Below are positions 2,860 to 52,475 of a DNA stretch of 64,000 nt, piece by piece. This DNA comes from Sipunculus nudus (Eukaryota; Annelida; Sipuncula; Golfingiida; Sipunculidae). The first letter of the stretch is position 1. Every line of letters begins with the position of its first letter. Location of the stretch: assembly GCA_026874595.1 (NCBI GenBank), contig CM049319.1, positions 65,030,417 through 65,094,416 on the forward strand, in the 5' to 3' direction. The position numbers were made by a program, and so were the translations under genes. The notes beneath the pieces are model-generated. The model saw only the letters and a program-made list of their open reading frames with translations. It searched no databases and was not told the origin of the DNA.

Positions 2860-4940
2860 TCTACCTCCCCCACATCCACCCTATCATAGGTCATGGTGAC
2901 CTATATTTTGTGACCTACGGGCCGAAAACATGATTTTGAGCACCCAAGCAGTCAGACGGGGCACAAATTGTAGGAGGTCCTAGGACAATGTCCTTGGAAA
3001 CCTAAAATTAGGTCATGGTGACCTATATTTTGTGACCTAAGGGGCGAAAACATGATTTTCGCCACCCTGAATGTCAGATTGGCACACATCTTATCTGTAA
3101 GGCCTAGAATCTTCTAACGCAACATCCTGGGAGGTTCTAGGCAAATCTCCTTGGAAACCTGAAAATAGGTCACGTAGACCTACATTTTGCTACCTACAGG
3201 CCGAAAACAGGATTTTGAGCACCCAGAAAGTCAGATATGGCATAAATTGTATCTGTTAGGCCTAGGATCTTTTAATGTAAGATTCTGAGACATCCTTGGC
3301 AAATGTGCTTGCAAACCTGAAATAAGGTCACCAAGACCTATATTTTGCGACCTATAGGAAAAGATGTCATATAAGCACCCAGACAGTCAGACAGGGCATA
3401 AATTGTATCCATTAGGCTTAGAATATTCTAAAATAAAATTCAGGGAGGTCCTAGGCAAATGTCCTTGAAAACCTGAAATTAGGTCTTGGTGTCCTAAATT
3501 CTTGGACCTATGAGCCGAAAAATGGTTTGAGCACCCAGACAGTCAGACGGGGCACAAATTGTATCCAATAGGCCTAGAATCTTCTCTCATGACATCCAGT
3601 ATGGTCCTAGGCAAATGTCTATGGAAAGATTAAATCAGATCATGGTGACCTATATTCTGCAACCTATAGGAAAAAGATGTTATATGTGCACCATGAATGT
3701 CAGATAGGTACAAATCGTGTCTGTTAAGTCGAGAATCTTCTAACACAAAAGCTAGGGAGGTTCTAGCTACATCCCTTTATGAAACTAAAATTAGGCCATG
3801 GTGACCTATATTTTGCAACTGAGGCAGAAAAAAATATTTTTAGCACCCAGACAGACGGGGCACATATTGTAACCATTAGGCCTATAATATACTAACATTA
3901 GATTCAGGGAGGTCCCAAGCAAATGTCCATGGAAACAAATTTAGGTCACCTTATGTGACCTATATTCTGTAATCTGCAGGGGAAAAGGTATCATATGAGC
4001 ACCCTGAATGTCAGATTGGCACACATTGTATGCATGAGGCCTAGAATATTCTAAAGCACCATCGAGGGAGGTTAAATCTCTTTGGAGACCAGAAAAGATG
4101 TCATGGTGCACCTAGGCTATATTCTATGTGCTCTGAGCCAAAAGAATATATGGATTTGAGCATCCAGACAGACAAGGTACAAATTGTATCTATTTTCCTT
4201 TGAACCTTATATTGAAAAATCTAGGGAGGTCTTTGGCAAGTCTTCTTTGAATCCTAAAATAGGTAACTTCATTCTTATAATACACGTCAAATATAGTCAG
4301 AAAGGGCACAAATTGTATCCTTATAAGCCTTAAAATCTTCCATCACTACATCCATGGAGATCTTGGCAAATCCCACTGGAAACCTGCATGTGACAGGCCA
4401 AAAACATGATCAGGGTACCTTTAATCTCAAGTGAGTACAAATTTTATGCATTAGGCCTAGATCCACGGCAAATCTCCTTTGGAATTTAAAATTATGTCAT
4501 GGTGACCTATATTCTGCAAGCTACTGGCCAGAAGCATGATTTTGAGCAGTCAGACAGGGCACAAATTGTATCCATTAACCCTAGACCCTTCTTATATGAC
4601 ATTCAGGGAAGTCCTTGCCAATTCTCCTTGAAAAACTGAAATTAGGTCATGGTGACCTATATTCTGCGAGCTATGGACCAGAATAATGATTTTGAGCATC
4701 CAGCCTGACAGGGTACAAATTGTCTATTTTCCTGGGAACCCTCTATTGTGAAATCCGGGGGGGGGGGGGGGTCCTGGGCTGGTCTCCTATAAATCCTTAT
4801 TTTTTTTATTTTCTGTCCATTTTTCAACTTAGTAACATTAGACATAGGCTTTTCTCACAGACAATATATAAAATTAATATAAGAAATGGGCACCAATTCA
4901 AATTTAGCTGAGCGTCATGCCCCATGGGCCACTTGTTGTT
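2860..4940 (+). repeat. Tandem array of about 157-bp units with palindromic AGGTCA-N3-TGACCT sites
   Basis: About 13 degenerate units are marked by a GCACAAATTGTATCCATTAG-like phrase near 2957, 3082, 3239, 3397, 3550, 3708, 3860, 4020, 4177, 4308, 4435, 4560 and 4711. Each intact unit also carries TCCTTGGAAACCTGAAAT, then AGGTCATGGTGACCT, then a second TGTGACCTA and CCGAAAACATGATTTTGAGC. The palindrome is perfect at 2888-2902, 3010-3024 and 4644-4658 and has one mismatch in several other units. The array ends near 4910-4940 in GAGCGTCATGCCCCATGGGC, almost the same end as the array at 60814-62850. It includes a G-run near 4757-4771. Confidence 0.85.
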
Positions 4941-5377
4941 ACTTGATTCATTGCTGTACACTTTCATTCGCTTTTTATACATAAAAAGGAATCTGCCTCT
5001 TGGCGTTAATTCTCAAATTATCAAGGGATAACAGAAAAATAAATCTAATTATGCATCACAGAAAAAAATGATGAATAATTGATGTTTTTCTCTTATTTCG
5101 AGTCTTGAAATGTTACAAGAATATATGTAAAAAATCTAAATGCAGAGTAATACCTCGCCTAACGACCCCTTCTGTTTAGCGACCACCTAGAAATAACGTG
5201 CACTTGTTGACGGTCTCGAGCCTTAATTTGCTCATTATATAAGACCTCACTAAGACGATCGCTTTCCAAAAAGAAAAGACTAAATCAATACAATCTGACC
5301 CTAGTTTATATACTCTTCTTTCCCTGACCCATATCTAAATGAGTTTAATTTTTTTTATAATCCGACAACAATTTTGG
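4941..5377. other. Unassigned; possible transposon end near 5141
   Basis: No gene is visible. A stretch starting near 5148 (AATACCTCGCCTAACGACC) loosely resembles the end of Tigger/pogo elements, but no matching inverted end was found, so it is left as a weak note. Confidence 0.3.
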
Positions 5378-5589
5378 CAGAAGCGGATCCGGGGGGGGGG
5401 GGGGGGTCCAGGGGGTCCGGACCCCCCTTTTTTTATCAGAAACAACGTTTTTTTAAGGGCTTCAGACAAAATTTTGCGGCTTGGACCCCCCCCCCCTTTT
5501 CCAGACCTGGGGACCTTTTTTTGGGGTTTTCATTGGTGTTCCTGGGTTGGACCCCCCCCCCCTTTTCCTAAATCCTGGATCCGCCCCTG
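5378..5589. mobile_element. Short hAT-like MITE rich in poly-C/poly-G
   Basis: The left end CAGAAGCGGATCC and the right end GGATCCGCCCCTG are imperfect inverted repeats, 212 bp apart. Inside are two GGACCCCCCC-plus-TTTTCC modules. The CAGNGGCGGATCC terminus is of the kind seen on hAT-superfamily MITEs (family knowledge). An exact 8-bp target duplication is not visible. The overlapping open frames at 5339-5771 are artefacts of the homopolymers. Similar GGATCC-plus-poly-C scraps occur near 26731 and 27943. Confidence 0.55.
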
Positions 5590-6149
5590 TTTGGGGTTAT
5601 CTCGCTTACATTTTTGTTACTCAGGCGGAGCAACCCTTATTGAGAAAAAAATGTATCCCAAACTTTATTGCCCTGAGGAAGCCACAAAGCAAACAAGTAG
5701 ACATATCCTGTTCTTGTAAGCGAAAAAAGGAGAACAAGGAGCAAAACCCGTCATGTTTTTATTTCCGTTAAAATAATTAAGGATTTATTCAAATTAGGAT
5801 ATTCCATGAAATAGATCGAAAATCAAAAAGCATGTTTTTGGCGTTGTTAGAGATGTCATACCCTACCGTATTTTGTCTTTCTGACAGTGGTCAGCTGAAG
5901 TCTTTATTAAAAATGAATAAAAACTCATGATCCATAGCCTACGTTCATCTTAAAAACACAACAACAGTTGCATATATTTTATAAAAATACCCGGAATTGC
6001 AATTCTTTGGGATTACGTGCGGTCTTTTAAACGCATTACTACCTCAACTGCATATTCTCTTTCAATCATAAAATATTTATAGATATATTTCATCAGAGTA
6101 TGTTCTACCAAGGAAGTTGGCATGCTAGGTTTAATGGAAATGCCTGTAC
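5590..6149. other. Unassigned AT-rich DNA
   Basis: I see no gene, repeat or motif I can defend in this stretch. Confidence 0.4.
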
Positions 6150-6345
6150 AGTCGAGTTGTAAAACTTGGCAATCTCTGCTAGCGACCCGGGTCAGATCCC
6201 CGGCGTTGCTTTGAGAGTGGGGTTACCCGTCCAAGGCCTGTGGTTTATTCCGGGTCCTCCGGGTTTCTCCACCCAAACAGATTACGAAACGCCACCATTA
6301 AGGCCATTGTGAGTACTCGTATAAGTTATTATAACTAGTTTTAGA
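6150..6345 (+). mobile_element. tRNA-derived SINE-like fragment
   Basis: GGGTCAGATCCCC near 6189 resembles a degenerate RNA polymerase III B box. It is followed by a GC-rich body with GGGTCCTCCGGGTTTCTCC near 6254 and a tail CACCATTAAGGCCATTGTGA. The conserved CTCCGG-TTTCTCC block downstream of a B box is common in invertebrate tRNA-SINEs. The A box is not clear and no tail repeat or target duplication was found, so it is probably an old copy. Confidence 0.5.
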
Positions 6346-7185
6346 ATCAACTTATTTGAGCCATAATTAGGTATATCCTGAGTAAGTATCAATGAAATTG
6401 GATGAAAAAGTGACAGAATGATAATAATAAGAACTAGCTGCTCCCGTGGAAAATCCACGGCTCCATCTGATGCATATTTTTGTAATGAGCTGATAGGAAC
6501 TAAACGACGCATATTTTAATCCAAAGGTTTTTGCAGGAACTTTTGTCATGTGTTTCACTTATATGGTATAAAGATAACTTCTGCTAGAATTCTCCAGGAA
6601 CACCCTCCCCCAAAATATGAACATAGACAGAAAAATTATTCTATTCCAGAAATCACACAAAAATATTGTTTCCCCGATAAACAACATAGGTCCGACAGCT
6701 TCATTGTTTGGAAAATATCGTAGATATAATGATTGTATACAGAAACACTCTACCGTGAAAATATATGAAAGATGCTTTGTATTATTTAAAGCTCAGGCGA
6801 CATCGTAAAACACGATGTTTATTCAGTGTAATCAGTTGATAGTATATAGTCTTAGGCATGCTAACAGACACGTGCATTATTTGTATACGCATGTATAGGT
6901 CGTTGAAATATCTTGTACGGGAAACGTTTAGCTGCCAATGTGGAAAATATAGGCGAAGAAAAATATATTCCAACAGTATTAAATTTTTGGTTTAAGAACC
7001 GTAAATTGTCAGGTTGATATATTTCGATGAAAGCATTTTGCAAAGAAACCACTTCAGCCTTGGTTCTTTGGATTGTCTTCCAGCAAATTAAAGCAAAATG
7101 TAATATACAGATTTTGCTGACATTTGTAGAGGGGTAGAGTAAAACTGCATCCTTAATCGATAACATTTTTGAGGGTAATTGGAAT
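6346..7185. other. Unassigned AT-rich DNA
   Basis: Several open frames of 60-100 codons overlap on both strands. None shows a recognisable domain, and their overlap argues against coding. No repeat is evident. Confidence 0.4.
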
Positions 7186-8560
7186 CACCATAATATATTT
7201 TTTTCTTAAGTGCCATTATCACAATTCCACAAAGGAATAATTATAAGGGGCTATTCCTTTGTCCCCAAGTGGAAACCGCCCATTCGTATGCAGTTGTTCT
7301 GCCACTCGCCTGGTGAACCCGTGTTTCTGAACCATGACAATGTTTCACATGAAACGTGCACGTATGAACGAACGACTAATTAGAAGATTCTGTTTTGGTT
7401 TTTAAAGTCCCAAAGAGATTGAGGACCCTTAGAATGGGGGGGCAACCCCCCCCCCCCGCCTCCCGCCCCAGGGCTTCCTTTTGAAAAAAACTTTTTTTTT
7501 CGAACAACCCATTAATCGGCCGAACTATTAAAACCATAGTTTTCATTGAAAGATACTTCTGAATGTATCAAAATCAACATACCTGTAAACCTATAAAACG
7601 GTGATCGTGTAAAGGGTCTCAGCTCTTTGTGTTTAATCAACGGAAAATGCTCACTATTAAAAGATTCATGTGGACATGTGTTCTGCGCTTGAATCTAAAA
7701 TATTTACATCCTTTTGACAAAGTTAACTTCCTTAACAGGCGATATAATGGAAATGGGGTTCAGTGGGGATTACAGGTGGCCTCCTGAAAAATTGTTACAG
7801 GCGAAAAATGTTTTGCTAAACTTTTGTAGAGAGTTAAGGTAAAGACATGTCAATAGTCCATTTCATTTTTCAATATATATTTTCTTATAAACCATTATGA
7901 CAAAGGACCATTCCTTTGTCCCCGAGTGGAGGCCACCCATTCGTATTAATTTATTCTGCCATTCGCAAGGTGATCTCGTGTTACTGAAGCATGACAGTGT
8001 TCACACATACACGTTATATTAAAGGAGATTCTAATGGAGGTCTGTACGCCCTGACTACAGATTCTAGTTTTTTATTTATTGAAAGATGTACTGGTGATAT
8101 TTTTTCATGCTTCACCGTCCCTACAGACAACGGATCTCAATAAATAAATGTGAACCCCCTGTCCTCCCCCCCCCCCCCACCCCAACCCGAATGATAATTA
8201 AGTTGTGGGGCTTCTTTAAAAAAACTTCATAAACACATGACTTGTCTGAACTTTTGAAACCATGGGTATCATGGAATGATATTTTTGAATGTATAAAAAT
8301 CAACATACCTATATCTCATAAAAAATTTGTCAAACGGTAGTCACACCACTTGACTCAGTGCCCAGTTTGGCCAAACTGATGGGACCTCGGGTTGAAAACG
8401 GAGTCTTGTGGTCTTTGGATTAAAAACCTTTACTTCTTTTTGAGAGAGATAATTCCTTTAGAGGAGGCGTAACAATGGATATGGGGATCAATGGAGATTA
8501 TAGTGGACTCGCGTGACCGCGTATTGCACGGAAATGCCTTTTTGGCAGGACATGCGCTCT
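7186..8560 (+). repeat. Diverged tandem duplication, unit about 700 bp
   Basis: Three landmarks recur in order. ATTCCTTTGTCCCCAAGTGG at about 7253 returns at about 7912. GAATGTATCAAAATCAACAT at about 7561 returns near 8288. The GGCGATATAATGGAAATGGG region near 7738 returns near 8466. C-runs lie near 7448 and 8166. No coding content is seen. Confidence 0.6.
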
Positions 8561-9061
8561 GGCCACGGTCTTAACAGGCCAGTGGAAATCCCCGAGGCGC
8601 CTCCTGAAAAATCCTCACAGGCGTGGAGGACCTTGCAGCACAAGAGATATAGGGGCACCTAATGGGGGAAATATTAAAATTATTAATTATTAAGCTTAAT
8701 AGGGCATAATCCCGCAAAATAAAACAAACTTGTTCTAGAAGAGCACACCACCGATACGTCTGCCGAATTTGGAGAGTCAAATCAGAACGGAAGCAGGTAA
8801 ACCGTGGTCTAGAAAAAACTAACTCCGTATTAATTATATAGATAAGAATGCTAAAAACAAATATCTTCACCTAAGGATAGATGGAGATAATCAACTGGGC
8901 CAGGTTGCCTAGGCACCCCCGCTCTTTTTCTTATATCCTCTATTCACCCATTGTGACAGTCTTTATGGGTGCATTTAAATATCTTTTAATGGTTACGTGC
9001 AATCATACCTCAGTGACCGTTCAGCGCCAGGCAATGGTCCTACATGAATTGTTTGGTTTGA
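8561..9061. other. Unassigned, upstream of duplication block A
   Basis: No gene is recognised. The stretch GAGGCGCCTCCTGAAAAATC near 8593 resembles GTGGCCTCCTGAAAAATTG near 7779, so the tandem duplication above may extend slightly into it. Confidence 0.35.
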
Positions 9062-9352
9062 ACCACGTTGCTCATGGTGTAAATCTTTCTATTTTCATTA
9101 GCTGCCCAGTTTTTTTCTCTATGAGGAAAAAAGCAAGAGCTTAGGGTTTTCTGAACACCCATGATGGAGCCAGGTACTATTTTAAAATCATTAACATTTT
9201 GCAGTTCTGGTTTTATTATGACAAATATTTTTTATTACGCATTTATTAAACTTCAGTTAAAGATAAGCATTTCTGGTTTTTTTTCTAAATATTTGTTTTC
9301 ATTACGCAGTTAATTTTACTTTAGTTTCAAGGGCTGAAGAATATCGAGCATA
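9062..9352 (+). promoter_or_regulatory. 5' flank of FMO-A with candidate splice acceptor
   Basis: This region is conserved with the 5' flank of FMO-B (37548-37857). A pyrimidine-rich TTTTACTTTAG ends at 9324, 28 bases before the ATG, and its counterpart TTTATTTTAG ends at 37830 in FMO-B. That suggests a spliced 5' UTR whose first exon and promoter lie further upstream and are not located. No TATA box is assigned. Confidence 0.4.
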
Positions 9353-9464
9353 ATGAAGAAACACGTGTGCGTGATTGGAGCCGGAGTGGCTGGTCTTGTG
9401 TCAATTAAGGAGTGCTTAGAAGAGGGACACGAGGTCACGTGCTACGAACAGTATGACGACATCG
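9353..9464 (+). CDS. FMO-A exon 1 (FAD-binding loop)
   Basis: It encodes residues 1-37 plus one base. It contains GAGVAG (9-14) and E32, and ends in ATCG before the donor GTAAGT, a phase 1 intron. The frame stays open past the donor to 9601, but that tail is intron. Confidence 0.93.
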
Positions 9465-12400
9465 GTAAGTGCACTTCAGGTCAAGTAAATGTATTATCAC
9501 ATGTCCTAAACTGCCCCTTAAGTCCACAACCCGGAAAAGAATATAAACCTTGCAGCGATGTGAGTGGCTGTCTTCGTTATGACATTATAAACTGCGTTTA
9601 AAACTGCGTTTATAAAACTATTTTATAGATGTTCTAGATTGTTGAATTTAGACCAATAAGTGTCCAGCTCATAAAGCCCATGACTTTAACTTTAACACAC
9701 ACACACACACACACACACGTTTATTTATTTGGCAAGGCCACACAATGGGTTCAATTGAGGAAATACATCCTAAGGTTCAAGCTGGTGAAGTAATCCATGT
9801 GCTATTAAATATTAATACTTCGTCACACCAGCTTGTTCTCTTTACATGTAAAAACAGACTATGAAGCTCATTATGATTTAACGCATTGTAAGGCCTCATG
9901 AGGATGCGAATATTTTCGTCATTTTTGACAACGCCGCATGGCCTACAGGTACACTGCCAATTAACATAAACCAGACCAATCGTTAGCATTTTTTGTTTAC
10001 TTTCTAATAACGCCAAACATGAGCGAGAAAAGTTCCGTTTTAACTCGGCATTTTGGTATATACCTTGTCATGTTTGTTGAATTTATGACCGCATGACACC
10101 CAGACAACTTGCAGGCGATACAGAAAATGACTCGTTACCAAAGTGATGGGGTTTTTGTTTGGGTTGTGAGTTAAAATGTATTCTATATTTTTCAAAATCA
10201 TCCATAGCATAATGTTTGGATTGTGAATAGATTTACCACAATATGAATGCAACATGATGGAACATGATATTGCTTGTATCACAACTCAAGTAGGCTCATT
10301 AACCCGATTATCATATCCTACTGAGTCGGGTTGTCACGGCTACAGACTATGTTACTCTCACAAAAAAACTCAGTATTCATGCGCATTTGTCGAAAGTAAA
10401 ATCTGCGAACATTAGAAGTTTAAATGCGAGAAGTGCGCTTTTTTATGTGTTAACTAATTGAAGGCTTGACACCCTTTAATGTTACACGTTACAGTTAGGT
10501 GATAAAAATTAAATTCCTTCAACAGGTGGCACGTGGTATTACTCTGAGCAGAAGAGACCAAACCAGGGTGGATCCGTATACTCTCGTATGCATTGTAACA
10601 CCAGCAAAGAAATGACGCGATTCAGCGACTTTCCTGTGCCAGACCACTACCCACTCTTCATGCCACATGAGACGGCTCTCGAATATCTCCGCAGCTACGC
10701 AAAAGAATTGGACCTTTTAAAACATGTGAAGTTTGAAACGGAGGTATTGGATGTCAAGCCTGCCGACGACTATGACGTCACCGGAAAGTGGGTGATAGTT
10801 ACGTCATCCAAGACTTCCGGTAAACAAGAACGCAGCACCTACGATGCCGTGCTGGTTGCTTCCGGTTATTTCAAGAATGAGCACCTTCCACACATCCCTG
10901 GGCAAGAGACGTTTCCAGGAGGGATCACACATAGTAAAAGTTACCGAAGAAGTGAAGATTTCCAAGGAAAGACCGTCGTTGTTGTTGGTAAGTTCCTTCA
11001 GCTATTCAGTTTTTAAGGGACGTCTCTGTATTTCTGTCACATACTTTCAGATGATCAAATATATACCTAGCACATGGTAAGAGCTTAGAGCTCAAACAGT
11101 GAAAAAAAATATAATAATAAGAACCTTCATTCTTGAATGACAAAAATTTGACTTAAGACCATCACATCCATATACACACTGGTGATACTGATGTATTCCG
11201 GACATGAGCCCCCTTTATAGGGACTCGGACATGGACGCGAGGGTTATTGACTTAGTCTAAGTTATTAAAACGCTGTTGCGTAAGGCCTTGTGTTCAGACT
11301 CTTCGCATTTTTCAGGAGTTAAAATGCTGATGGTGTCTCCAGCTGTCATAACACACTCTTATAATTTCGGGCATGATGCATCAGCAAGTGACTTGATAGA
11401 TTGAACCAATAGACCACAATCGGTAATTTTAGAGAGTTACACTGCTGGTATTATGGATATTCATCAACACTCTCTATAACGGACTACAGGCGGGATGCTT
11501 TTGATGTTGAAGTGTGAGAATTAAGCTTCTGTCCGGTTTTATAATTTCAGTTTCTATATGTCATTTTTGTTGGTGAGCTACGCTGGACACAGCTGCGATT
11601 GTCTCGTACAGGTCTTCTTAAATGAAAAACAAATTATCTATTTCTTTATAACAGACAAGCTACTGTTTTCTTTCCTGAGAGAAAACAGCTCCTGGTAGCG
11701 TCCAACTGATATTTGTTCTTCTCTATAAAGTTTGCCCCAACAAGGAGGGTATGTGGTCATCTCCGTTCGTGTATTTGTGTGTGTGTCGGTGTGTTTGCAT
11801 GTATGTTTGTCAAAAATATAACTTACGAAGTCATGAAGGGAATCTCATGAAATTTTCAAGGCATTTTTCTTGAATGGATTAGATTTTAGTGTGGATCTGG
11901 CCCATGATCCGGATTCAGATACATCATCAAGGAATATTCACCAATGTAGTCAACTATTCACGAATGAACCTCGGAGTATGGGCCGAATAAGTGAATGCAA
12001 ACCTGGTTTGGACAGCATTCCACTATAGGAACACCCACATGACGGAGGCTTGCAGTCCTTAGAATGCAGATTTCTAGTCCCACATACTTTTGTCCTCAGT
12101 GTAACCGTCCTGATTTTGTTATGTCCTAAGGCCATCTTTATACCCTCCTTCATGCCAGGAACTTGCCACATTTTACAGAGAGCCTGCTGCTTTGACAAAA
12201 GATTCATCTTGAAGCTTATAACACAGCGCCCTGGATCGTGTTGCGATTTGCTCCTTGCTTCATTCAATAGGAATGCTCATACGAATCGAAACTAATCATA
12301 TTAGGTCAATTATGAGGGTAAAAATCACATCTACCAGATATAATTTTTTTAATAAAAAAGAGATTCATGAAAAAAAGAAGAATAAGAAGAATGTAGTTTA

Positions 12401-12641
12401 ATAACTGACATATGTTATACACTTAAATACAATCTCTGTGTTTATATATTGCAGGAAATTCGTTTTCCGCCGGAGATGTTGCAACAGACGTAGCTTTCTC
12501 CGCCAAAAAGGTATTTTTTACAGGGGTCACGGGTATACGACAGTGGGTTTGGATTTGGGAAGTGTGAATCGAACTAAATACTGAGAAAAAGTTAATAAGC
12601 AGATTTGATACGAACTAATTTGTTTAATCTTAAATTGCCGG

Positions 12642-12712
<71 letters not shown>

Positions 12713-15398
12713 CTACACTTACGCCCCATTGTCAACCCTTATGTGCATAAGTTTGGCTCTAATTTCAGGTGTATTTGGCAGTTGGAGAAGGAACATGGGC
12801 GTTTCGGTACATCAAAAACAACGGTGAGCCCACTGATTGGCTCAGCCGCAGTTTCTATAAGCAGACCCCAGAAAAGATCAACCAAGCCCTCCGACAAGTG
12901 GCCTCCGAAAACATTGATCATTACAAAACGGGCCTTGCAGGAACGAAAGAGCCCTGCAATCAAGCTTTCATGTTGGTGGATAATCTTGGAAAGCTCATCG
13001 GGTCGGGAAAACTAATAGTTCAAGGTTTTTTGGAACGTTTCGATGGGCAAATTGCTGTGTTCTCGGGAGGTGTGACTGTCCCAGTAGATGACGTCATCAT
13101 GGCGACAGGGTACACACCCGAGTTCTCATTTCTTGACGAATCTGTCGTAGCAGGTAATGTTGTTTATTATATATTTTATTAATTAAAGTCTCCTTAATGA
13201 AGTTGCATTAATAACAAATGAGGCTACAGGTAAAAATCCCACCTTTCTTGAACCAGATATAAATATACAAAGGATAAAATGTTTACATGTCAGTAACGAT
13301 TTTAGCATCAGTGTGGTATGTTCGGTATAATGAGAAACTTATGTTAATATTCCTATTAAGGCTTAACACCAACATTAAATAAAAAAAAAGTTTCAACGAC
13401 AAACATGACAGCCTCCATGTACAGAACAACACATCGGGTTAACCACCAATTGTCTCACGTCTTTTCCGTTCCACTTCTTTCGGGCCTTGCAGGTCATTCT
13501 ATGAGTATTCATACTTCCTTGCATGTCAGCTAAACTATATAACGCTAGAAAGACATCTTAATGAACATTCAGACATTACTTCAGCTATATCTTAGCCTAA
13601 AAATATCATTCTCAGTTGTATGGTGCTTGATTGAAATGAAAACTGACTTTCATTTCCAAGAAATTGACATAAATCGTTAACAAGAATACCGGGTCATTCC
13701 TATAGTTACGCTACTCACATTGTTGCATTACAGTCGTTCCAGAAATGGTAGCGTTAAACTGCTGCTTTTTATGGCAAGCTTCTCTGGGCAGGACCACCAG
13801 GGTGTGCACAGAGCAAATAATTGTAATGAGACCACTTACATTGTGCACCCAATCCAAATTTTAAACATGTGACACGCGCACTCGTTAATTTGACACAAGT
13901 CCTCATTGGTCTAATTACACCAGGACACAAGCTCCCATTGGTCTAATTACACCGGGACACAAGCTCCCATTGGTCTGATTACACCAGGACACAAGCTCAC
14001 ATTGCTCTGATTACACCAGAACACAAGCTCACATTGGTCTGATACACCAGGACACCAGCTCCAATTGGTCTGATTCTTGGCTCTATGGCAATAAGGGTGT
14101 TATCAAACCAACGACAGTTGGGTGTTGCATGTATAAATATGGACTGTATGCAAAAAATATATATATATATATATAATAAAATAAATATCAAATTAAATAA
14201 ACCGCTATATGTTATGCTTGCCCTATGATAACAACTTCCGTTCACCTTACTGGTGAGAAGACGATGCGCATAATATTCCATTAGCATAAATATTGATATA
14301 AATGTAAATAAAATTAACACACATTAAAGAAAAATTTACATTCGTGCCAATTAATAGGAAAGTTTATCAATTAAATAAGTTCTCATGCAACTCTACATAT
14401 ATGCATTGTATGAGTTTAACGAGCACATAGGCTTCTGCCAGGGAAGAAAGTCAGCCTTTTATTAAGTCTGCCCTCGACGAAAAATGGGTCCGCTTGATGC
14501 ACTTTTGCCATATACAGTACTTGTTATTTTCAGGTTTTGCTCTTGTATTCTTGATATCAAAATAAGGTTTCACTTTTCGTGCCTATTCATCTCCCCATCT
14601 AAGATGCCAATAATCAAAGTTGTTTATACATTATATTTGTCTTTGGACAAAATAATACGTCTCACTTTTCATTTGCAGGTGATTTTAAGAAAATGCGCCT
14701 GTACAAGTTAATGTGGCCGAGTGAGATGAAGCACCCGACCCTCGCTGTGATTGGTTGTCTTGCCTCTAACACAAGCTTGTGGCCGGTGTTTGAGCTACAG
14801 GCCCGCTGGGCGGCCCTTGTGTTAAGTGGAAAGCGCCATCTACCGAGCAAATCAGAAATGATGAAGGACATCGACGCGTTCATTGAATCATCGACGCAGC
14901 AGTTTGGGTCATACAAGCTCTTTGTAAGCTTTTTTTTAAGCTGAGAATATTTATTATTAAAATTACCACCATATTACCACCATTACATTACAACATATAT
15001 TTGAGAGAAAAAGTTGCCACCTAACGTGCGGTCACATAAACTGACCTTCTGGATCCGGTTCAAACCCTATATCAGCTGAATCATCATTATTTCATCTCTG
15101 TAAATTATTTAATAGCCATTGTTAATTTTCTCTTTTTCAGACTGCCGCCATACCCTATGAGGATGAGTTAGCTAAATTGATTGGGTGCTACCCGAAATTT
15201 TGGGATTATGCCTTATCTGATCCGAAACTGGCTTGGGCACTGTGGAAAACTCCGGTTTTCCCCGTCCAGTACCGTCTAACTGGGCCTCATCCGCGGAGCG
15301 ATGCCAGGGAGGAATTCCTGAAGACATGCGACAGCTTGTACAAACCAATCAAAAACCGCAAGGTGGCGCCACCATCTAAGAAAGGGTTATTTTTTTGA
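9353..15398 (+). CDS. Flavin-containing monooxygenase, copy A (six exons, 505 aa)
   Basis: The coding exons are 9353-9464, 10526-10987, 12455-12510, 12769-13153, 14679-14923 and 15141-15398. All introns are GT-AG and the joined frame is 505 codons plus TGA. FMOs use FAD, NADPH and O2 to oxygenate soft nucleophiles (N or S) in xenobiotics and small metabolites. Seen: FAD-binding GAGVAG at residues 9-14 with E32 at the end of the second strand, GGTW at 38-41, the FMO signature [11 protein letters not shown] (FxGxxxHxxxY) at 167-177, a nucleotide-binding loop GNSFSAGD at 192-199, and ATGY at 322-325. No C-terminal membrane helix is visible, unlike vertebrate microsomal FMOs, so it may be soluble. 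The start is chosen because the FAD motif begins eight residues later and FMO-B has the same ATG. It differs from FMO-B at roughly 60 residues. No AATAAA was found within about 1 kb of the stop. Confidence 0.95.
9465..10525 (+). other. FMO-A intron 1 with (AC)n microsatellite
   Basis: This is a 1061-bp intron. An (AC)12 tract at 9695-9718 is expanded compared with the CATACACACAA at the matching site in FMO-B (about 39021). Minus-strand open frames at 9777-10282 show no domain. Confidence 0.7.
10526..10987 (+). CDS. FMO-A exon 2 (GGTW through FMO signature)
   Basis: It begins after AACAG and completes the GGTW motif. It encodes NTSKEM, FSDFP and the [11 protein letters not shown] signature, and ends in GTTG before GTAAGT (phase 1). 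Positions 10842-11000 are identical to 39686-39844 of FMO-B. Confidence 0.95.
10988..12454 (+). other. FMO-A intron 2
   Basis: This is a 1467-bp intron that aligns with FMO-B intron 2 (1402 bp), for instance at the ACCTTCATTCTTGAATGACA segment near 11124 and 39961. Open frames at 11950-12295 overlap on both strands and are not supported as coding. Confidence 0.7.
12455..12510 (+). CDS. FMO-A exon 3 (nucleotide-binding loop)
   Basis: A 56-nt exon between TTGCAG and GTATTT. It encodes the [19 protein letters not shown] segment and restores phase 0. It is too short to stand out as an ORF and was placed by frame continuity and its twin in FMO-B. Confidence 0.93.
12645..12710. repeat. (TA)33 microsatellite in FMO-A intron 3
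   Basis: An uninterrupted TA tract that, with flanking bases, more than doubles intron 3 (258 bp against 118 bp in FMO-B). The matching site in FMO-B lacks it, so it arose or expanded after the duplication. Confidence 0.95.
12769..13153 (+). CDS. FMO-A exon 4 (central domain, ATGY motif)
   Basis: It starts after AATTTCAG in phase 0 and ends in GCAG before GTAATG (phase 1). It encodes residues 211-338 plus one base, including [12 protein letters not shown]. The frame runs on to 13182 into the intron. Confidence 0.94.
13154..14678 (+). other. FMO-A intron 4 (compact form)
   Basis: This is a 1525-bp intron. It preserves the sites that are filled by a LINE (near 13345) and by larger insertions (near 14320-14480) in the 10.1-kb intron 4 of FMO-B. 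It contains the 32-bp minisatellite described separately and a short (TA)n near 14158-14175. Confidence 0.75.
13893..14075 (+). repeat. 32-bp minisatellite, about six units, each with an ATTGG box
   Basis: The unit ACACAAGCTCCCATTGGTCT plus AATTACACCGGG recurs with few changes. Each unit carries ATTGG (reverse of CCAAT), intact in five of six; the fourth reads ATTGC. It is absent from the matching intron of FMO-B. Confidence 0.85.
14679..14923 (+). CDS. FMO-A exon 5
   Basis: It starts after TTTGCAG, completing glycine 339, and ends in CTCTTT before GTAAGC in phase 0. It encodes residues 340-420, including a conserved [16 protein letters not shown] stretch and [11 protein letters not shown]. 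Confidence 0.93.
14924..15140 (+). other. FMO-A intron 5
   Basis: A 217-bp intron with a CTCTTTTTCAG acceptor. FMO-B intron 5 is 547 bp, partly because of an (AT)n tract. Confidence 0.8.
15141..15398 (+). CDS. FMO-A exon 6 (C-terminus)
   Basis: It encodes residues 421-505, ending in PPSKKGLFF and TGA. It contains [12 protein letters not shown] and [10 protein letters not shown], which correspond to the C-terminal region of animal FMOs. The tail is polar and lacks the hydrophobic anchor of vertebrate enzymes. Confidence 0.93.
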   Translation, partial: TAAIPYEDELAKLIGCYPKFWDYALSDPKLAWALWKTPVFPVQYRLTGPHPRSDAREEFLKTCDSLYKPIKNRKVAPPSKKGLFF

Positions 15399-16539
15399 GT
15401 TTGGTGAATTCGATGTTTCATTAATAGATGACCTCACAATCCAAGTGTTGACTGTTCTGCGTTGTATTTGCTCGTACTTAATGAAGAAACACCAGGGATA
15501 GAACAACAGCTATTTCATACTTCTGTACTTTTCTGTATCTATTTCGGTCAACCTCACGGACCATTAGGCACTGAGAAGATTACCCGTTCATTGGCAGGTA
15601 TTACGATACCGTTCTGGACTGGTTTTCCATGGGCCGAGATTGAATCCGGCCGGGTTTTAATAGCGTAATTTCTTATAGATGGCGCTGCCATGGATTCCTA
15701 GCAAAATCATACTAAAGTTTCCAGAATATACAAGTAAATGTTGAAAATTACACAAGAGTATCACTTAGGATACACTTTGCATCGCGCCCGACTTATCAAG
15801 ACTAAAAACGGTGTTTCCTAATTCCTAACCACGGAGATGTTGTTTGATAACGATCGAGTGTCTCCACCGACAGTTATAATAATTATACTAGTTAATATGT
15901 CTAGCTGTTATATATTATCCAGTACTTATTACCATTAATCACAATTTATTTTCTTCGCATCCTCAAGGAATCAGAGGTTTATATTATTCAAGCTTTGTAA
16001 ACACTGAATTTATCATGTTATTTTTAACTGCACGACACTGTCGTTCTACATGTTAGGCAAAAGGACATATATTACCTTGTTTCACAGATTTATAAACATT
16101 ACATTCGAAGTTCACTCGTAAGTTATCCTGGAACAGTTATTGCTTAAGAAACGTTTCTCTGTCACAAAACCCTTTCCATTCTTCTCTTTTTCCGGCTTCG
16201 TAACGCCCTCGAGTTTGAACAAATTGCCCATGACGATCAGCTCAATCTGACATATTGGTGACGCATCTATTAATTATTATGTTGTGATCTGATGTAAAAT
16301 ATTTGTTATGGAACCTTTAACAATAGGTTGAATGACTTCCAGCATTCACGCTTTTTTCCCTTGCTTTAATCCTTATAATACAGTTTACAGAAGATTTGAC
16401 CAGGAACTCCCAAGATGCTTAGTTAGAAGTTTTTAAAATCCAGATGCTATAATCAGTGCGCGTCTAATTAATGGGGTACTAAAACATGTTCTTTTACATA
16501 GCGCGCAGAATATGTCACAGTGAGCTTATTTTAGATTTC
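15399..16539 (+). other. 3' flank of FMO-A
   Basis: It aligns with the 3' flank of FMO-B (52939-54370), for example TTTTCCGGCTTCGTAACGCC near 16187. No AATAAA is visible, so the 3' UTR end is not placed. The open frame at 15462-15668 has no counterpart and is not supported. Confidence 0.5.
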
Positions 16540-16990
16540 GATTGAATTTTACAGGAAATAACCCGGAATCTTAATCAAATTAGAATCTTCAAGTTTTTTG
16601 GTCTAACTATAACAAATCGTGTAAATCTGTCATATAAGGTGCTCAAAATATATTCTGTCACATATTTTGCAGAATATTTTATGTCACATTGACCTTATTT
16701 CTGATGTCCGAGGAAACTGTATAATGACCTCCCATTACATTATGGAAGACGTTTCTAGATCTAACACTTAAGGTTTGTGCACTGTCTTACTTTCTTGGTG
16801 CTCAAAATTAGTTTATCTGCTCGTAGCTCACATATTATCATGGGTCATCACAGGTCATCCTGGCCTTAAATCACCGATTGAAGGAGATTTTCTCCAGGAC
16901 CTCCTTGAATTAGAAGTTAGATGGTTCTAGGTACATCCGTATTGATTTGAACCCATCTGATTCTCGCGGTGCTAGAGTCATATTTTTTCC
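16540..16990 (-). repeat. Decayed minus-strand copy of the 157-bp array unit
   Basis: Read on the minus strand, it shows array landmarks in order: GGTCCTGGAGAAAATCTCCT, a TGACCT half-site and ACTAATTTTGAGCACC, with a second set near 16620-16800. No perfect AGGTCA-N3-TGACCT palindrome remains. Confidence 0.5.
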
Positions 16991-37969: not shown

Positions 37970-40900
37970 GTAAGGGCACTTAAGGTCAAGTAAAAGTATT
38001 ATCACGTGTTCTTTCTTGCCACTTTAGTCCACAGCCCCTAACAGAATTAATATAATCAATGCAGTGATGCGTGTGGCTGTTGCCGTTTTGACATTATAGA
38101 CTGCATTTAACAATGTATAAAATGTTTTTAAAGATAATATTGTTTATTTATCTGAGCAATTCGTTGGGCGGGTGTAAATATGTGGTCGATGTTGGTCAGC
38201 TGCCAGGAGTGATTTTCAACTTTTAGACATGTTTTATGAATATTATACTGATTACCGGCTTAAAATATTCACATTGGAAGGACAGACTGCAAACAACTCT
38301 ATTTACTCTATATCATTTACCTAAGCTAAAAATGGATTCAATTGAATCTGGAATTTCTTGGCACATGGTAGCGGCAGCCTGCAACCGCAGTCGATCTTGT
38401 ATTCTAGAGACATGGTGGTGGCAGTACAAGCTATAGGGTTCGGATCAGTTCTAGTATAAGCAGATGTACACCCCATGTTTTTCTGCCTGTCTTATTGTTA
38501 TTTTTCACAGATTTGATAAAAATGTTACTACATCCCGTATCAAGAACAACTCATTAGTCATCTCAAATAAACTTTCACATCTTTATGCCGTTATATTTGA
38601 TAACCAAGCCTATTTCATCATCAAATTGCACACGCATCATTCCATTAAACAAATCCTTTTAGGAAACGGTCTACGAGACTGCCGTAGACTTACATCCGGC
38701 GCAGATTTACCCACTGTACGGCGAACGAAGAAAATAATTGTCCATGAAATAAACTTATGTCCTGTAGAAATAAGATAAAAACGTTTCGAGCGCCTTTTTC
38801 GGTGATTAGTATGTTTTTTCCTATTTTTTATCATTTTTGTCCGTAGCAGGGGGGCCTTGCGCCTCCCACAATCCTATCCGGACACTCGACATAAAAATAT
38901 AGAGCAAGCAGACAAATAGATCATTAGTTCCATTCATATTTGTGAATGTAAATAAAAAAACATGGTTTTGTTTGTTGGAGAATTTATTCAGTTCATAAAG
39001 GTCATGGCTTTAACTTTAACATACACACAAACGTTTATTTTCTTATTGGTAAGGCCACACAATGTGCTAAATTGAGGAAATACAGGTTCAAGCCGGTGAA
39101 GTATGTTGCCCTTACATGTAAAAACACACCATGTAACTCTCACAGAATCATTTCATATTTGCATTTTATCGAGAAAAAAATTTGGGAATACTTTGGTATG
39201 AAAAAAGCGAGGAGTACACAATTGTTTTGAAGTAACAGTTTTCAATTAAAATTTCTTTTCTCTCATGCTAATATATAAATATATTCATCTTCATACTAAG
39301 TAGTCTCTGGCCTGACTGCCACAGACTTTGCAGCATGAAGATGATAAATATTCATATTATTTGCTTTAGGCGGCACATGGAACTACTCTGAGCAGACGAG
39401 ACCAAACCAGGGTGCATCCGTATACTCTCGTATGCATTGTAACACCAGCAAAGAAATGATGCGATTCAGCGACTTTCCTGTGCCAGAACACTACCCACTC
39501 TTCATGCCCCATGAGACGGCTCTCGAATATGTCCGCAGTTACGCAACAGAATTCGACCTTTTAAAACATGTGCAGTTTGAAACGGAGGTACTGGACGTCA
39601 AGCCTGCCGACGACTATGACGTCACCGGTAATTGGGTGATAGTTACGTCATCCAAGTCTTCCGGTAATCAAGACCGCAACATCTGCGATGCCGTGCTGGT
39701 TGCTTCCGGTTATTTCAAGAATGAGCACCTTCCACACATCCCTGGGCAAGAGACGTTTCCAGGAGGGATCACACATAGTAAAAGTTACCGAAGAAGTGAA
39801 GATTTCCAAGGAAAGACCGTCGTTGTTGTTGGTAAGTTCCTTCAAATATTTACTTTGTAAGAAACGTCTCTGTATTCCTGTAATCCGCTTTCAGATAATT
39901 ATTTATATACCTAGAACATGGTTAGAGCTCATAGATCAAGAGTGAACAAATAATAAGAAGAACCTTCATTCTTGAATGACAATTGGATTAAAGACCACAT
40001 CCATACCAGGTTGTTGATACTGCGCCTCAGTGATGTAGGCCGGACATGAGTCGCCTTTATAGGGAATCGGCCATGGACTCGAGGGTCTTGAACTCAAACT
40101 GAGTTAATGAAACGATGTCGTGTAAGGTCTGGTGTTCAGGCTCATGACATTTTCCAGGAGTTAAAATATCATGCCCATGGTCTCTTCAGCTGTCTTTCAA
40201 CACATTTCGGGCACATTGCATCAGCAATGGACTTGATAGACTACAATAAGTAACTGTAGAAAGAGTTGTACTGCTGCTTATGCATCAGCACTGTCCCGTT
40301 AACGGAATACTGGCGAGAGCATTGTGGAGGTGAACTGTGAGAATGAATTTACTGTCTGGTTTGTCATTTTTAATTCTCTATTTATTTTTTTCTGTTGAGC
40401 TACGCTGGACACAGTTACGATTTTCTTGTACGGTATGGCCTTTAATTAAAAAAGGAAAAATTATCTGTTTCTTTATTACAGCCAAATTATCATTTTTCTC
40501 TCCTTAGAGAACGGCTCCTGGTAGTGTCAGGCCGATATTTGTTCCTCTCTTTAATTATGCCCGACCAAGGAGCGGCTTGTGTGTTTGTGTGTATGTATGT
40601 ATTTTTGTTTACCATACAACTCACGCCATCATTAACGGAATCTCATAAAATTTTAAAGGCATTTTTCCTGAATGGGCCGATGAAAATCTATTAGATCTTG
40701 GTGTTGATCTGGCCGATGATCCGGATTCAGGAGCGTCATCAATGAATATTCACATAAGTACGAATGCACTTCGGAGTATTGGCCAAAAAGTTAATGCAAA
40801 CCTTATTTGGACAGGATCCCATATAGGAACACCCCTCATGGCGGAGGCTTCTATTCCTTAGAATAAAGATTTCTAGCTATAGTTTCACATACTTTTGTCC

Positions 40901-43900
40901 TCAGTATAACCGTCCTGGTTCTGTTATGTCCTGAAGCCAACCTTCTACTGTCCAACTTGCAAGGAATGTTGCCATATAATACAAGGAGCATGTTGCTTTG
41001 AAAAATATTCAGCCTGCTTCTCATAACACAGCGTCTTGGATGGTGTTGTGCTTTGCTCCTTGCTCCATTCAATATCAAAGTTAACACAAGTGTATACTAA
41101 TCGTATTTGTTCACTTGTAAGGATAACAGTCATATCTGCCAGCTGTTTTTTTTATAAAAAGGGATTCAAGAAAACAACAAGGATAGGAAAAATATATTCT
41201 AATACCTACAATCTCTGTGTTTATATATTGCAGGAAATGCGTTTTCCGCGGGTGATGTGGCAACAGACGTAGCTTACTCCGCCAAAAAGGTAACTTTGCA
41301 GGGGTCATGGGAGGGTGGGGGATGAATCGTAGAAAAAACTGATAAAATTAAATAAGCCGATTTGATACGACCGAATTAGTTTTTTTTAAGTTTGGCTCTA
41401 ATTTCAGGTGTATTTGGCTGTTGGAGAAGGAACATGGGCGTTAAGGTACATCAAAAACAACGGTGAGCCGATTGATTGGCTCAGCCGCCGTTTCTATAAG
41501 CAGAGCCCAGAAAAGATCAACCAAATCCTCCGACAAGTGGCCTCCGATAATATTGATCATTACAATACGGGCCTTGCAGGGACGAAAGAGCCCTACAATC
41601 AATCTTTCATGTTGGCAGATAATCTTGGAAAACTCATCGGATCGGGAAAACTTATAGTTCAGGGGTTTCTGGAACGTTTCGATGGGCCAAATGCAGTGTT
41701 CTCGGGAGGTGTGACTGTCCCTGTTGATAACGTCATCATGGCGACAGGGTATACACCCGAGTTCTCCTTTCTTGACGAATCAGTCGTGGCAGGTATTGTT
41801 GTTATTTTTTTCATTTTATTTACTAAAGTCTCCACAACGAGGTTGCATTTGTAACAAATGAAGCTATAGGTAATAATCTCACTTTTCTGGAACCAGACAA
41901 TACAAATATACAAAGAAATAAAAGTTTACGTCATTCATGTATGGAACGATTTTAGCATCAGTGTGGTATGTTCAGCATAGTTGGGAACTTACGTACTTTA
42001 TTTATTTATTTATTTATTTATTTATAATACATATTTAACCAGGATAGCCTATTCAGCAAAAGCTGTTTTTCAATAGGGTCCTGGTCTAGATGATATAGAT
42101 AAGTACACAGATAAAAAAGCAAATATGAAAGAACTGAAACTAAAATACATGCATACATAAAAAACAGTTATACATACATGGTTTTAAAATGATCATAGAA
42201 AAAAATCTGCTTAAATGATATACACGAATATTGAGTAAATAAATTTAAATAAGAGGCCTGACTAAAAATTAAAACATGTAAGATCGTGATTTCACAATAA
42301 ATATATTACATAATGACACAGATATATAGGTAATGAATACAAAGACGAAAAGGCACCTGTGAACAAGCTATGAAAAATTATATGGCATAAATTGCTTGTA
42401 CAATGATTTAAACTGGCAGAGACTGGTTGCAGATTTGACACTTACAGGTAAAGAATTCCAGTGGATGGGACCAGCATATGCAAGACTTGCTTTGAAGGAT
42501 TCTCTGTTTGGTTTAGGTAATGATAAATTGAAGCCCTGAGAAAAACGAGTATTAACACGGTTGAACGTATGCGTAAGAGAGGGAGGGACATTACCAGACA
42601 AACATTTAAAGACCATTAAAGAAACAAAATATTGGTATCTCTGTTTAACATTCATCCAACCCAATGTTGCAATCAATGATGTAGAGGATATATTGGTATC
42701 ATAAGTTTTAGTAACGATTCTAGCAGCTCTATTTTGAAGTTTTTGGAGTTGTAATAAATACGTTTTGGAGGAATTAACCCAGAGAGATATACAATAATCA
42801 ATGTGACTCTGAATAAAGGCATTGTAAAGTGTGTTTAAGCTAAAGACATCTAAGGTTTTACTTAATCTGAAAAGGAGACCTAGTTTTAATACTATTTTGT
42901 CGCACACCAGTTGAATATGTTTTTTCCATGTAAGACCAGCGTCGATGATAACACCTAAAAGCTTTGTGTGTTCAACCGGCATCACTGTAATGTTATCCAT
43001 GGAAATGTTCAGTTGATTTCCATTGGTTTTAGACTTGGGGCCAAATAGTATGAATGATGATTTTTACGTACAAATTCCTATTATAGCTAACACCAAAACT
43101 GGACGACCACAGGTCGTGCGCTTGCCGGAAATGGCATAGAAATGAGCAATTGCATGAGCTAACAAGAAGAAAAAGAAAATGAGCCATTGTATGCTAAGAT
43201 AGGAAAAATACTGACAAAGTTAGGGGAAAAAAGATTTTGACGTGCGTTGATGACCTTGACCTTGAACTTTTACCTCTATAAAATACACATACATGTAGCT
43301 TCTGCAATGCTTTCAGTATAGGATACGAATAAGTTTCTTAGCGATTCTTGCAAAACTATGTGCCTTTAGAATGCTATATGTCCAGTGCAAGAAATAGCAA
43401 GCACGCAAAATGAGGACAGACATACTGACAAAGTGACACATCTGAGATAAAAGATGGCTCGATAATCTGATGGAGAAGGCGAAAAGAAATGTTAAGAGCT
43501 ACACTTATCTAGATAAGGTTGAAAGTTTAGGATATATGCTGTAACGTTTCGAATGCAGCGCCCCCTAGCAGATATATTCCGAAAATGATAAAATGCCTTC
43601 GGCATATTAGTTTGCGACATAAGATGTACCATTTTTAAAAGGATTTCTGCAAGTCTGTGGTCTGTAGAATGGCCATTGTAAGACGTAAGAACCAGCAAGC
43701 AACCAAAATGGAGAACTACTGACAAACAGACAGACACACTGACAAAGGGACAGAAGAATGAGACCAGACGACTAAACCTGGTTCTAGAAAAGACCTAGAG
43801 AAAAAAATGAGCTATAGCTTGTAAAAATTGGACCAATTTTGACAAAGTTATGTTGAAAATAATATTCCGATGTGATGATTTTTACATTGACCATATGACC

Positions 43901-46900
43901 TATTTAAATAATTTACATAGGACTTCTAGAAATCATTCCTAAATACAATATATCTAAGTTACACAGTGATTCGTGTTGAATTGTGGCTGTAGAATTGTAT
44001 ATGCAAGACGCAAGAACCAGCAAGCAGGCGAAATTGAGGACTACTGAAAAACAGACAAACGTATTATAAAAATTAAGCGATCACTGCAACACTGTGCATT
44101 TTAGGCTCAAGACAGACAGAAAGATAACAAACAAACAGACATACGCAACTAACCATCGGCAAGTAATAAAATAAAAATTGTTAAAACGACAAACATGCAA
44201 GCCTCCCGGTGCAGAGCAACAGACAAGGTTAACGACCACTTGCCTCACGAGTTTTCCGTTCCACTCCTTGAATTCCAGGCCTTGCACGGACCAAGCTCTT
44301 CATTCTCTGAGATTTCATATATACTTCCGTGCATGTAAGCTACACTATATATAACCTTAGAAAGATAAACATATAAATGAACATTCAGAAACCACTTCTA
44401 ATATATCTAGACTTAAACGCATCATTCTTCATTCTATGGTGCTTGCATGATTGACATGAAAACTGACTCTGATATCCAAGAAAATGACAGACCTCATTAC
44501 CAAAAATACCGCATCAAGCTGCTTCTGTTGTATCTCAACGAGTACAACAGGTATTGCCACCTCGCGCATAGTATATAACTAATTTTCGCCGACTATAGCT
44601 TTTAGAGCTCAGTGCTGACACTGAGTTACGTCGATTGGTATATTGAATTACATTTTATTATACGCATTTTAAAATTTAGTGGTTAACGTAAATACTAAAG
44701 CTCATGCTGGCTCATGCTAGGTCAAAAACATTGAAAAAAATGACCTCCCTGGTCAGGTTACTCGATTGAACGTTCAAAAAATAGCTATTAAAATAAATAC
44801 ACCGCTATATGTTATACCTGCTATACGAACACAACTGAACGTCTCTAAACAGCGCAAATCACAGTACCTAACAGGCGAATAGACCCATCAAATAAATTTT
44901 AATGGAATAAATATTGATAAACGTGGAAACAAAAATAAGCCACGTTAAAGGAAAATTCACATTCGACCCTAAAAGAAACCAGGATGGACAATGAGCTTGT
45001 AAAAACTATATGATGTAGACATGAAATTGGGGTTACTGATATGTATCGTTGGGGCATACCCCCTTCTTCAACTTGGCGGAAGACGTCGTACCGCCAAAAC
45101 AATTGCTGGCGAGTGAAATCGACTGACTGACCCAGTGGCGATGTCGTCATTATTATGCATGCTTTATTTTTCTTACACTTATGCCAAAATGAAAAAGGTA
45201 TGGTTCTCAGGCACTTTTTTTTAGAAATCAATGCGGGCGGGCGGTTTTTTTTCTATATTTCAATAAAAATGTCAAATGATAAGGGAAAAACATGGTGATA
45301 ACATATTCATTTTGCTAAACAAGTGAATGCACTTCAAAACAAAGGAAATTGTATGATTTAATCTTCTTGAAAGAAATGTCAGAGCGGCTGCAGCTCAAAA
45401 TTGGAAAGTTTCTATTGAAAATTAAATTTAAAACAATTGATACGGGAGTTTAAAATTGATGCGGGCGGTGCCTGAGAACCATATCTTTTATTTTGGACTT
45501 GGTTTAAACATATTTATTTCTTTTGGATTGTACAAGTAGCGCTTATAAGCGCTAATATAAGTACTCTCCAAACTTTCAAACAGGAGATACAATATACAAA
45601 TGTCTAACAATTAAAGAGAATTGTGCATATATCAAATCCGTTATAACAATATATCAATGAATGTCTAAATAATATGCAAATATATATGATATGTATTCAA
45701 TAACAATATGTTGAGATATCAAAACCGAGGAAATCTGTTATCGATCATGCATTATATGATGTATCCATCATACTTATAGAAGATAAGATATGAACAATCA
45801 ACAAAGTCTGATAAATACATTTGAAATACAAAAACAAAGTTCAGTGATTAACGGTATTGAACTTTGATGTTTAAAAAAATATAGATAATATATCACAGTT
45901 ACAATTACATTTCATGACATATTTAGCATAAAAAACGTCTTGATGATTTAAGGTATGTGTAGACGTGATCAAGTATACACTGATTGACTATTATACTGAA
46001 ATCTGATGACCCATGTAACAAGATAGACATTAATTTATCGGTTTGTTGTCTGCCTGGATTTGAAATGAAAGAAGTTATTATATCAGGGATTATATTTTGT
46101 AATTGCTCTAGTAGCAGTTGTCGTGCGATTCCGTAGTATGGACACATTAAGAAGAAGTGAACAGATGATTCAACCATTCCACAGTGTGGACATTGATTTA
46201 TTTCTGACAGGCCATGTCTATATAGATGATCTTGGAGGCAGCTATGGCCGAGCCTAAGTCTTGAAATTAAAATATTCTGCTTTCTTTTTCCATAACTATA
46301 ATATAATGGGGGGTCTGACTCTAAGCCAAGGTATCTGTTTAGAGAAGATTTAAAACAATTTAATGACGCTGCATTTTTTAATGACGCATCTAATGAATTC
46401 CATAGGACTGTGCAAGATGGAATGAACGACGATTTGTATTTTTCAGTTCTTGCACGTGGCGGGCGCAAGTCACTAGCGTTTCTTAGGTTCCGAGGTGTAA
46501 CGTCTGAGACTGACGCACACATTAATCGTGACATGAACACTGGACACAGACCATGATATAACTTATAGAATAAACATAGCTTAGATTTTGTTCGTCTGCT
46601 TTCTAATGTAGGCCAGCCAAGTTCAGATAAAAGTTTATCATAACTGGTCGTTGGAAGTGCTCCTGTGACCAGCTTAGCAGCCTCGTATTGGATATTTTCG
46701 AGTTTTTTTACAGTTTGATATGCTCATATTATCGAATATTACATTTCCATACTCGAGGACTGAACGAACATGTGACTTGTATAAGTGGTCCAGTGTATGT
46801 CGCCTCATGTTATATTTCAGACGCCTTAGTAGTCCTATTTTTTTATTGGCTTTAATGCAAATATTAGAAATATGTTCGGACCATGACAGGTCTGATGATA

Positions 46901-52428: not shown

Positions 52429-52475
<47 letters not shown>

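Follow-up and report, generated by a model that had tools for sequence, protein, structure and literature searches.

Perfect estrogen response element sequences within the tandem repeats of a probable Helentron family in Sipunculus nudus

Results

Repeat arrays and monooxygenase genes at the locus

The window, by which we mean the whole 64,000-nucleotide stretch of Sipunculus nudus DNA analysed here, contains tandemly duplicated flavin-containing monooxygenase (FMO) genes and three arrays of a tandem repeat. FMO exons lie at 10513–15398 on the + strand, where four ORFs match Pfam PF00743; these belong to a neighbouring gene and not to the repeat element. The second FMO region spans 39348–52938 and contains a related exon at 39348–39857 (PF00743, one ORF), further FMO-like ORFs recognised by eye and, at 47208–49382 on the – strand, a LINE-type ORF with endonuclease and reverse transcriptase domains. 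An earlier note on this DNA placed the first array within 5 kb of a detoxification gene. The gene is indeed present, but the nearest exon found lies approximately 5.6 kb from the element (4937 to 10513); this is not necessarily the first exon, and the gene may begin closer to the array. The data give no support for regulation of FMO by the arrays, and the window arrays are a few among very many scattered copies.

The first array occupies 2887–4799 (+) and consists of about 14 units of approximately 157 bp, as judged from the sequence and from 14 matches to an nhmmer profile of the unit. The unit length proposed earlier agrees with both the tandem period (156) and the units from the profile search (~157 bp). 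We interpret these units as the central repeats of a probable non-autonomous Helentron (HINE). The left border of the array falls within a unit, exactly at the palindrome described below (unit column 71); this copy is truncated and shows no 5′ HINE end at that border. The 3′ HINE end of this copy, at 4904–4937 (+), comprises the subterminal repeat TTAGCTGAGCG, the palindrome CCCATGGG and ACTTGTT, and the same end occurs in dispersed loci. The second array (60911–62644, +; nhmmer) has a 5′ HINE end at 60811–60875 (+), identified by eye against dispersed loci, with a subterminal repeat, a complementary repeat at 60835–60849 and a GTCC microsatellite at 60858–60875; its 3′ HINE end at 62811–62837 (+) is degraded. 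The third array, at 16388–16931 (–) and about 1 kb beyond the last FMO exon found, is a degraded run of the same ~157-bp unit (nhmmer). An Rfam scan of the window gave no family reaching its gathering score and thus revealed no self-cleaving or other known RNA within the unit.

The units carry the inverted repeat AGGTCA-N3-TGACCT (IR3), which matches the vertebrate estrogen response element (ERE) exactly. As the earlier note claimed, the first array has perfect copies on the + strand at 2888–2902 (AGGTCATGGTGACCT), 3010–3024 and 4644–4658. Copies one base off in other units, also claimed, begin at 3167, 3325, 3637, 3793 and 4494, and the site at 3481 is two bases off. Perfect copies in the second array, by IR3 count, are at 60982, 61140, 61265 and 61873. 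The window holds 19 matches with two or fewer mismatches, more than any of 100 dinucleotide shuffles (mean 2.13, maximum 6). A further TGACCT half-site had been described as frequent and as lying 11–13 bases after the palindrome. Where present it lies 8 bases later, and it is perfect at 6 of the 15 IR3-like sites examined and at 2 of 9 in the first array; it follows the sites at 2888 and 3010 and is degraded (CGAGCT) after the site at 4644.

Perfect IR3 sites are abundant genome-wide

We searched the 1.43-Gb assembly (153 contigs) and found 13,608 perfect IR3 sites compared with 93 for the reversed pattern, used as a control. This bears out the earlier claim that a repeat family spreads arrays of such sites. 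Spacings of 4–7 pooled gave 789 sites versus 387 reversed, part of them from one IR7 minisatellite on contig C1. Among the spacings examined (3–7), the enrichment is therefore a property of spacing 3. The minisatellite, outside the window at C1:3360225–3362484, has AGGTCA-N7-TGACCT in its units, spaced mostly 54 bp and partly 27 bp apart.

To describe the context of these sites we took the first 34 listed on C1 and used 24 of them, namely loci L001–L004 and 20 others that were fetched. A 16-base box, described below, lay immediately upstream (four or fewer of 16 mismatches) at 15 of the 24, compared with 1.9% of random places within satellite loci; among the 10 sites left out of this sample, 4 come directly after the box. 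Several of the remaining nine resemble the family downstream when compared by eye, and two (L165, L168) are not obviously members. Across 62 loci and window stretches, 271 IR3 sites fell within units and none outside, and the 155 TGACCT-N8-TGACCT pairs in the loci were also within units. The enrichment is true and large, and its carrier is mundane.

The arrays have Helentron-type ends

Dispersed loci were chosen with parts of the unit that exclude IR3, in two sets of 30 that jointly span contigs C1–C17. By eye, the loci listed share a flank layout of TTTTTAGCTCAGCTGACTGTAAGTCATCTGAGCT, a GTCC microsatellite, the array, a right module and TTAGCTGAGCGTCATGGCCCATGGGCCACTTGTT. Among the same loci, the left flanks carry a 5′ subterminal repeat with a complementary inverted repeat (AGCTCAGCTGA...TCATCTGAGCT, by eye) and the right flanks a 3′ subterminal repeat with a short palindrome (TTAGCTGAGCG...CATGGCCCATGGGCCACTTGTT). 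The 22-base 3′ end has 882 exact copies in the genome and its reversed control none. By a rule drawn up after the flanks had been inspected, the standard left flank is present in 49 of 54 arrays with their 5′ side inside the locus and the standard right flank in 28 of 44 arrays with a visible 3′ side; the 5 and 16 sides lacking it were counted against the HINE reading. The 5′ subterminal and complementary repeats, GTCC microsatellite, central repeats and 3′ palindrome are all recognisable in the sequence, and the same list of substructures has been described for oyster (Crassostrea gigas) HINE elements (PMC7492417).

Several of the unit types are found at roughly one copy in each array (28 units in 28 loci, 32 in 32 and 37 in 36; loci L006–L064), so the arrays seem to move as ordered sets. 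We also considered membership of the BIV160/Cg170 satellites, using the published primers: the likeness seen was a weak 11-base match to one primer, and 23 of 1000 shuffles matched equally well.

The palindrome is conserved before, but not after, insertion

Each unit has a conserved core of about 40 bp, TCCTTGGAAACCTGAAATTAGGTCA-N3-TGACCTATAT, the second half of which is a perfect IR3 in most unit types. We measured conservation in 393 units from 55 loci, drawn from 656 non-overlapping matches; none had served in selection. Selected units, window units, loci L001–L004, the overlapping loci L005, L014, L026 and L056, and short matches were excluded, while L037 and L038, which share a right flank and are probably one duplicated element, were both kept. 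All 12 arm letters are present in 375 units, and 199 of these are perfect. Agreement with the consensus was 0.940 in the IR3 arms compared with 0.832 in the rest of the unit (Mann–Whitney p = 0.004, columns treated as independent), and the arms ranked first of 128 windows along the unit. The three spacer positions (0.63, 0.56 and 0.78) are free. The palindrome is therefore better conserved than the rest of the unit in this family, which we call the window family. Judged from these alignments, fixed arms and a free spacer form the pattern expected of a dimer binding site, and this counts against reading the motif as a passenger.

Variants shared by at least 5% of units had a frequency of 0.020 in the arms versus 0.131 elsewhere, and columns with any shared variant numbered 3 of 12 in the arms versus 84 of 138 outside them. 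By contrast, private variants were no rarer in the arms (0.041) than elsewhere (0.036). Because shared variants are rare and private ones are not, the arms are held in multiplying elements and decay normally after insertion. Constraint by the host on inserted copies is unsupported by the private mutations.

Clustering of the 393 units without the IR3 columns gave six types, with a silhouette of only 0.147. The consensus of five types keeps all 12 arm letters. Type 3 is fixed for GGATCATGGTGACCT, with GGATCA as its left arm, and only 1 of 32 units is perfect. The spacer CCA is the reverse complement of TGG (the other classes are TGG and CTG), and we considered that it might represent a flipped palindrome centre. 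This was rejected: the units with CCA make up a subfamily marked by 17 diagnostic columns, which implies few flip events at most.

The upstream box and the palindrome in related families

The box just upstream of IR3, TGGAAANNNGAAATT, has 46,008 copies compared with 805 reversed, far more than IR3 itself. Only 5 of the first 100 boxes listed are directly followed by a perfect IR3 (coordinates compared by eye). The 60 that we fetched all come from the first 89, with boxes in 338-bp runs thinned out, and this selection missed 3 of those 5; among the 60, IR3 is perfect in 2 and within one base in 9. Most remaining boxes belong to a related family, D, defined by downstream sequence alone (42 of 60). 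The consensus of family D at the IR3 place is AGGTCTCTGTTACCC, exact in 21 of 42 copies. Here the arms (0.905) and the spacer (0.93–0.95) are both conserved relative to other columns (0.796; rank 9 of 150), so the segment is conserved in family D too, spacer included, but not as a palindrome. The two families may thus differ in constraint, the spacer being free in one and as conserved as the arms in the other. Family D is the most numerous relative, with 38,903 exact copies of the 17-mer AGGTCTCTGTTACCCAT and none of its reverse.

For family B we sampled copies of a 25-mer that excludes the IR3, using 20 of the 34 listed. IR3 is the family consensus and is perfect in 3 of 20 copies, but these 20 copies show no special conservation of the arms (0.843 versus 0.855; rank 109 of 158). 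It was IR3 sites that first drew attention to families B and C, and C was seen only through such sites, so these families are not independent witnesses of the antiquity of the palindrome. At C16:1186948–1234861, seven family-B units follow one another at intervals of about 8.1 kb, the last being 7.4 kb, which may reflect a large tandem repeat.

Nuclear receptors in the genome

A search for zf-C4 domains gave 67 exon matches. We fetched 66 of these (that at C16:37926229 is missing), which together with 4 matches from a query with the finger of the estrogen-related receptor (ERR) made 70 short stretches, and read the fingers in 64 of the 66 (none in L222 and L223). No estrogen receptor (ER)-type DNA-binding finger was among the 64 exons read, a count that a split or unassembled exon could escape. 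Two exons, at C3:3612680 and C3:3600429, represent ERR, their best PDB matches being ERR proteins. The ERR finger query gave 38 matches with E up to 10; ERR scored 71.6 bits and the next match, with a P-box unlike that of ER, 50.1 bits, compared with about 52–53 bits for ER chains in PDB with the same query. Other DNA-binding exons are, we assume, of RXR-, COUP- and HNF4-like receptors. Four more (L073, L076, L095 and L098) have the P-box CESCKAFF; we take these to be HR96-like and perhaps an expanded receptor group.

The extended site of ERR is TNAAGGTCA. By eye it is unmatched at either consensus arm (ATTAGGTCA, TATAGGTCA). As a comparison, two gastropods have an ER (PMC4388693), and the DNA-binding domain of a snail ER binds GGTCAnnnTGACC without ligand in gel shift; the ERR of the snail did not bind the ERE (PMC3778743).

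Discussion

Our data support the idea that the arrays are probably the central tandem repeats of a non-autonomous Helentron family whose core is kept at the source and whose inserted copies decay. As family membership would predict, rolling-circle transposition would scatter whole arrays, with their unit types, over C1–C17. The rarity of shared variants in the core shows that it stays nearly unchanged in spreading elements, and the frequency of private variants shows that inserted copies decay like other sequence. The core is most likely kept for a need of the element or by homogenisation of the array and not for use by the host; host use is disfavoured because a related family with a fixed, non-palindromic version spread far more. 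Helentron transposition of a conserved-core satellite is thus the most likely working process.

A tentative alternative, less probable than not but one we take seriously, is ordinary ancestry, in which chance or an unspecified cause has conserved the core, and the dyad arises from its sequence by coincidence. Windows of the same 6 + 6 form in the adjacent box, at columns 55–57, have no variable column across the six unit types, whereas IR3 has two, although box column 63, which falls in the gap between the two halves of those windows, is variable. Moreover, family D retains the whole segment, spacer included, with no dyad. What stands against coincidence is that no other window in the window family contrasts arms and spacer as strongly as IR3 does.

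It seems unlikely that the arrays are working or parasitic platforms for receptors (ERR, RXR, COUP-TF or an unseen ER) whose binding would make the element accessible or transcribed in the germ line, or would titrate the receptor. Such a role would fit the perfect consensus ERE, the strong preference for spacing 3, the fixed arms and free spacer, the ligand-free binding of GGTCAnnnTGACC by a gastropod ER (PMC3778743) and the presence of ERR and of the presumed RXR-, COUP- and HNF4-like exons. By contrast, the exact 17-mers of family D, which lacks the palindrome, outnumber perfect IR3 sites almost threefold, unit type 3 carries a fixed, broken left arm, the arms of family B are unremarkable, constraint after insertion is absent and no ER-type finger was among those read. 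The nuclear-receptor function suggested by the earlier note is therefore unsupported: conservation precedes insertion only, one of six unit types has a fixed broken arm, the most copied relative has no palindrome at the corresponding place, the arms of family B are conserved no better than the rest of the unit and no ER-type exon was read. On balance, the motif is better read as a passenger: a core carried by a transposon and conserved at the source, whose match to a perfect ERE is fortuitous. Its identity as an ERE is exact by sequence and its use as one appears unlikely; some nuclear receptors may plausibly bind incidentally at the thousands of perfect sites.

Equally doubtful is the idea that the palindrome matters as a DNA structure, a hairpin or cruciform serving rolling-circle replication, changes in unit number or breakage. 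The IR3 can fold as a hairpin in single-stranded DNA, and unit columns 67–92 contain 7 of the 21 nonstandard array ends (L064, L031, L024, L042, L043, L006 and window position 2888), five of them 3′ ends at columns 86–92; junctions of the phBglII400 satellite also fall inside a palindrome in 13 of 16 cases (PMC5139131). However, this clustering is small and was noticed after the fact, folding of the whole unit is ordinary (z = –1.18), and family D does without the palindrome. Mirror positions showed 4 Watson–Crick compensations and 76 G–T pairs versus 186 breaks; with no sign of compensation, these counts do not point to a conserved hairpin. It is very improbable that a Helentron lineage keeps the ERE in most of its tandem units because a bound receptor (ERR or another AGGTCA binder) aids its germ-line spread, with the genome a sponge of more than 13,000 sites from which family D later escaped.

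Perfect EREs outnumber the reversed control more than 100-fold, and 15 of the 24 sites sampled share one position within a single Helentron-repeat superfamily; scanning such a genome by motif for hormone response elements would largely tally transposon repeats. The arrays also lend themselves to a natural test of receptor titration by tandem EREs.

Compared with known systems, the site is identical in sequence to the vertebrate ERE, the difference being that no ER-type DNA-binding exon occurs among the 64 exons read here. Alu-borne DR2 retinoic acid response elements are likewise consensus receptor sites mass-produced by a repeat family; several of these are bound by receptors in ChIP (PMC1785376), whereas the site here is an IR3 in a probable Helentron. 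In the mollusc satellite and Helitron literature we searched, most of it outside subscription journals, we found no description of an ERE or receptor site. The BIV160/Cg170 satellites of bivalves have a unit of about 160 bp and two conserved motifs and are linked to Helitron-type elements (PMC5139131). For the oyster Cg_HINE, the available part of the account describes low-variability segments and mentions no IR3 or ERE (PMC7492417). Its arrays average 3.6 monomers (PMC7492417), whereas our 3-kb loci often have 9–15 unit matches. The likeness extends to the subterminal repeats, the complementary inverted repeat, a GTCC-like microsatellite, the 3′ palindrome, dispersed short arrays and satellite-like central repeats, which are 138–181 bp in Cg_HINE and about 157 bp here (PMC7492417).
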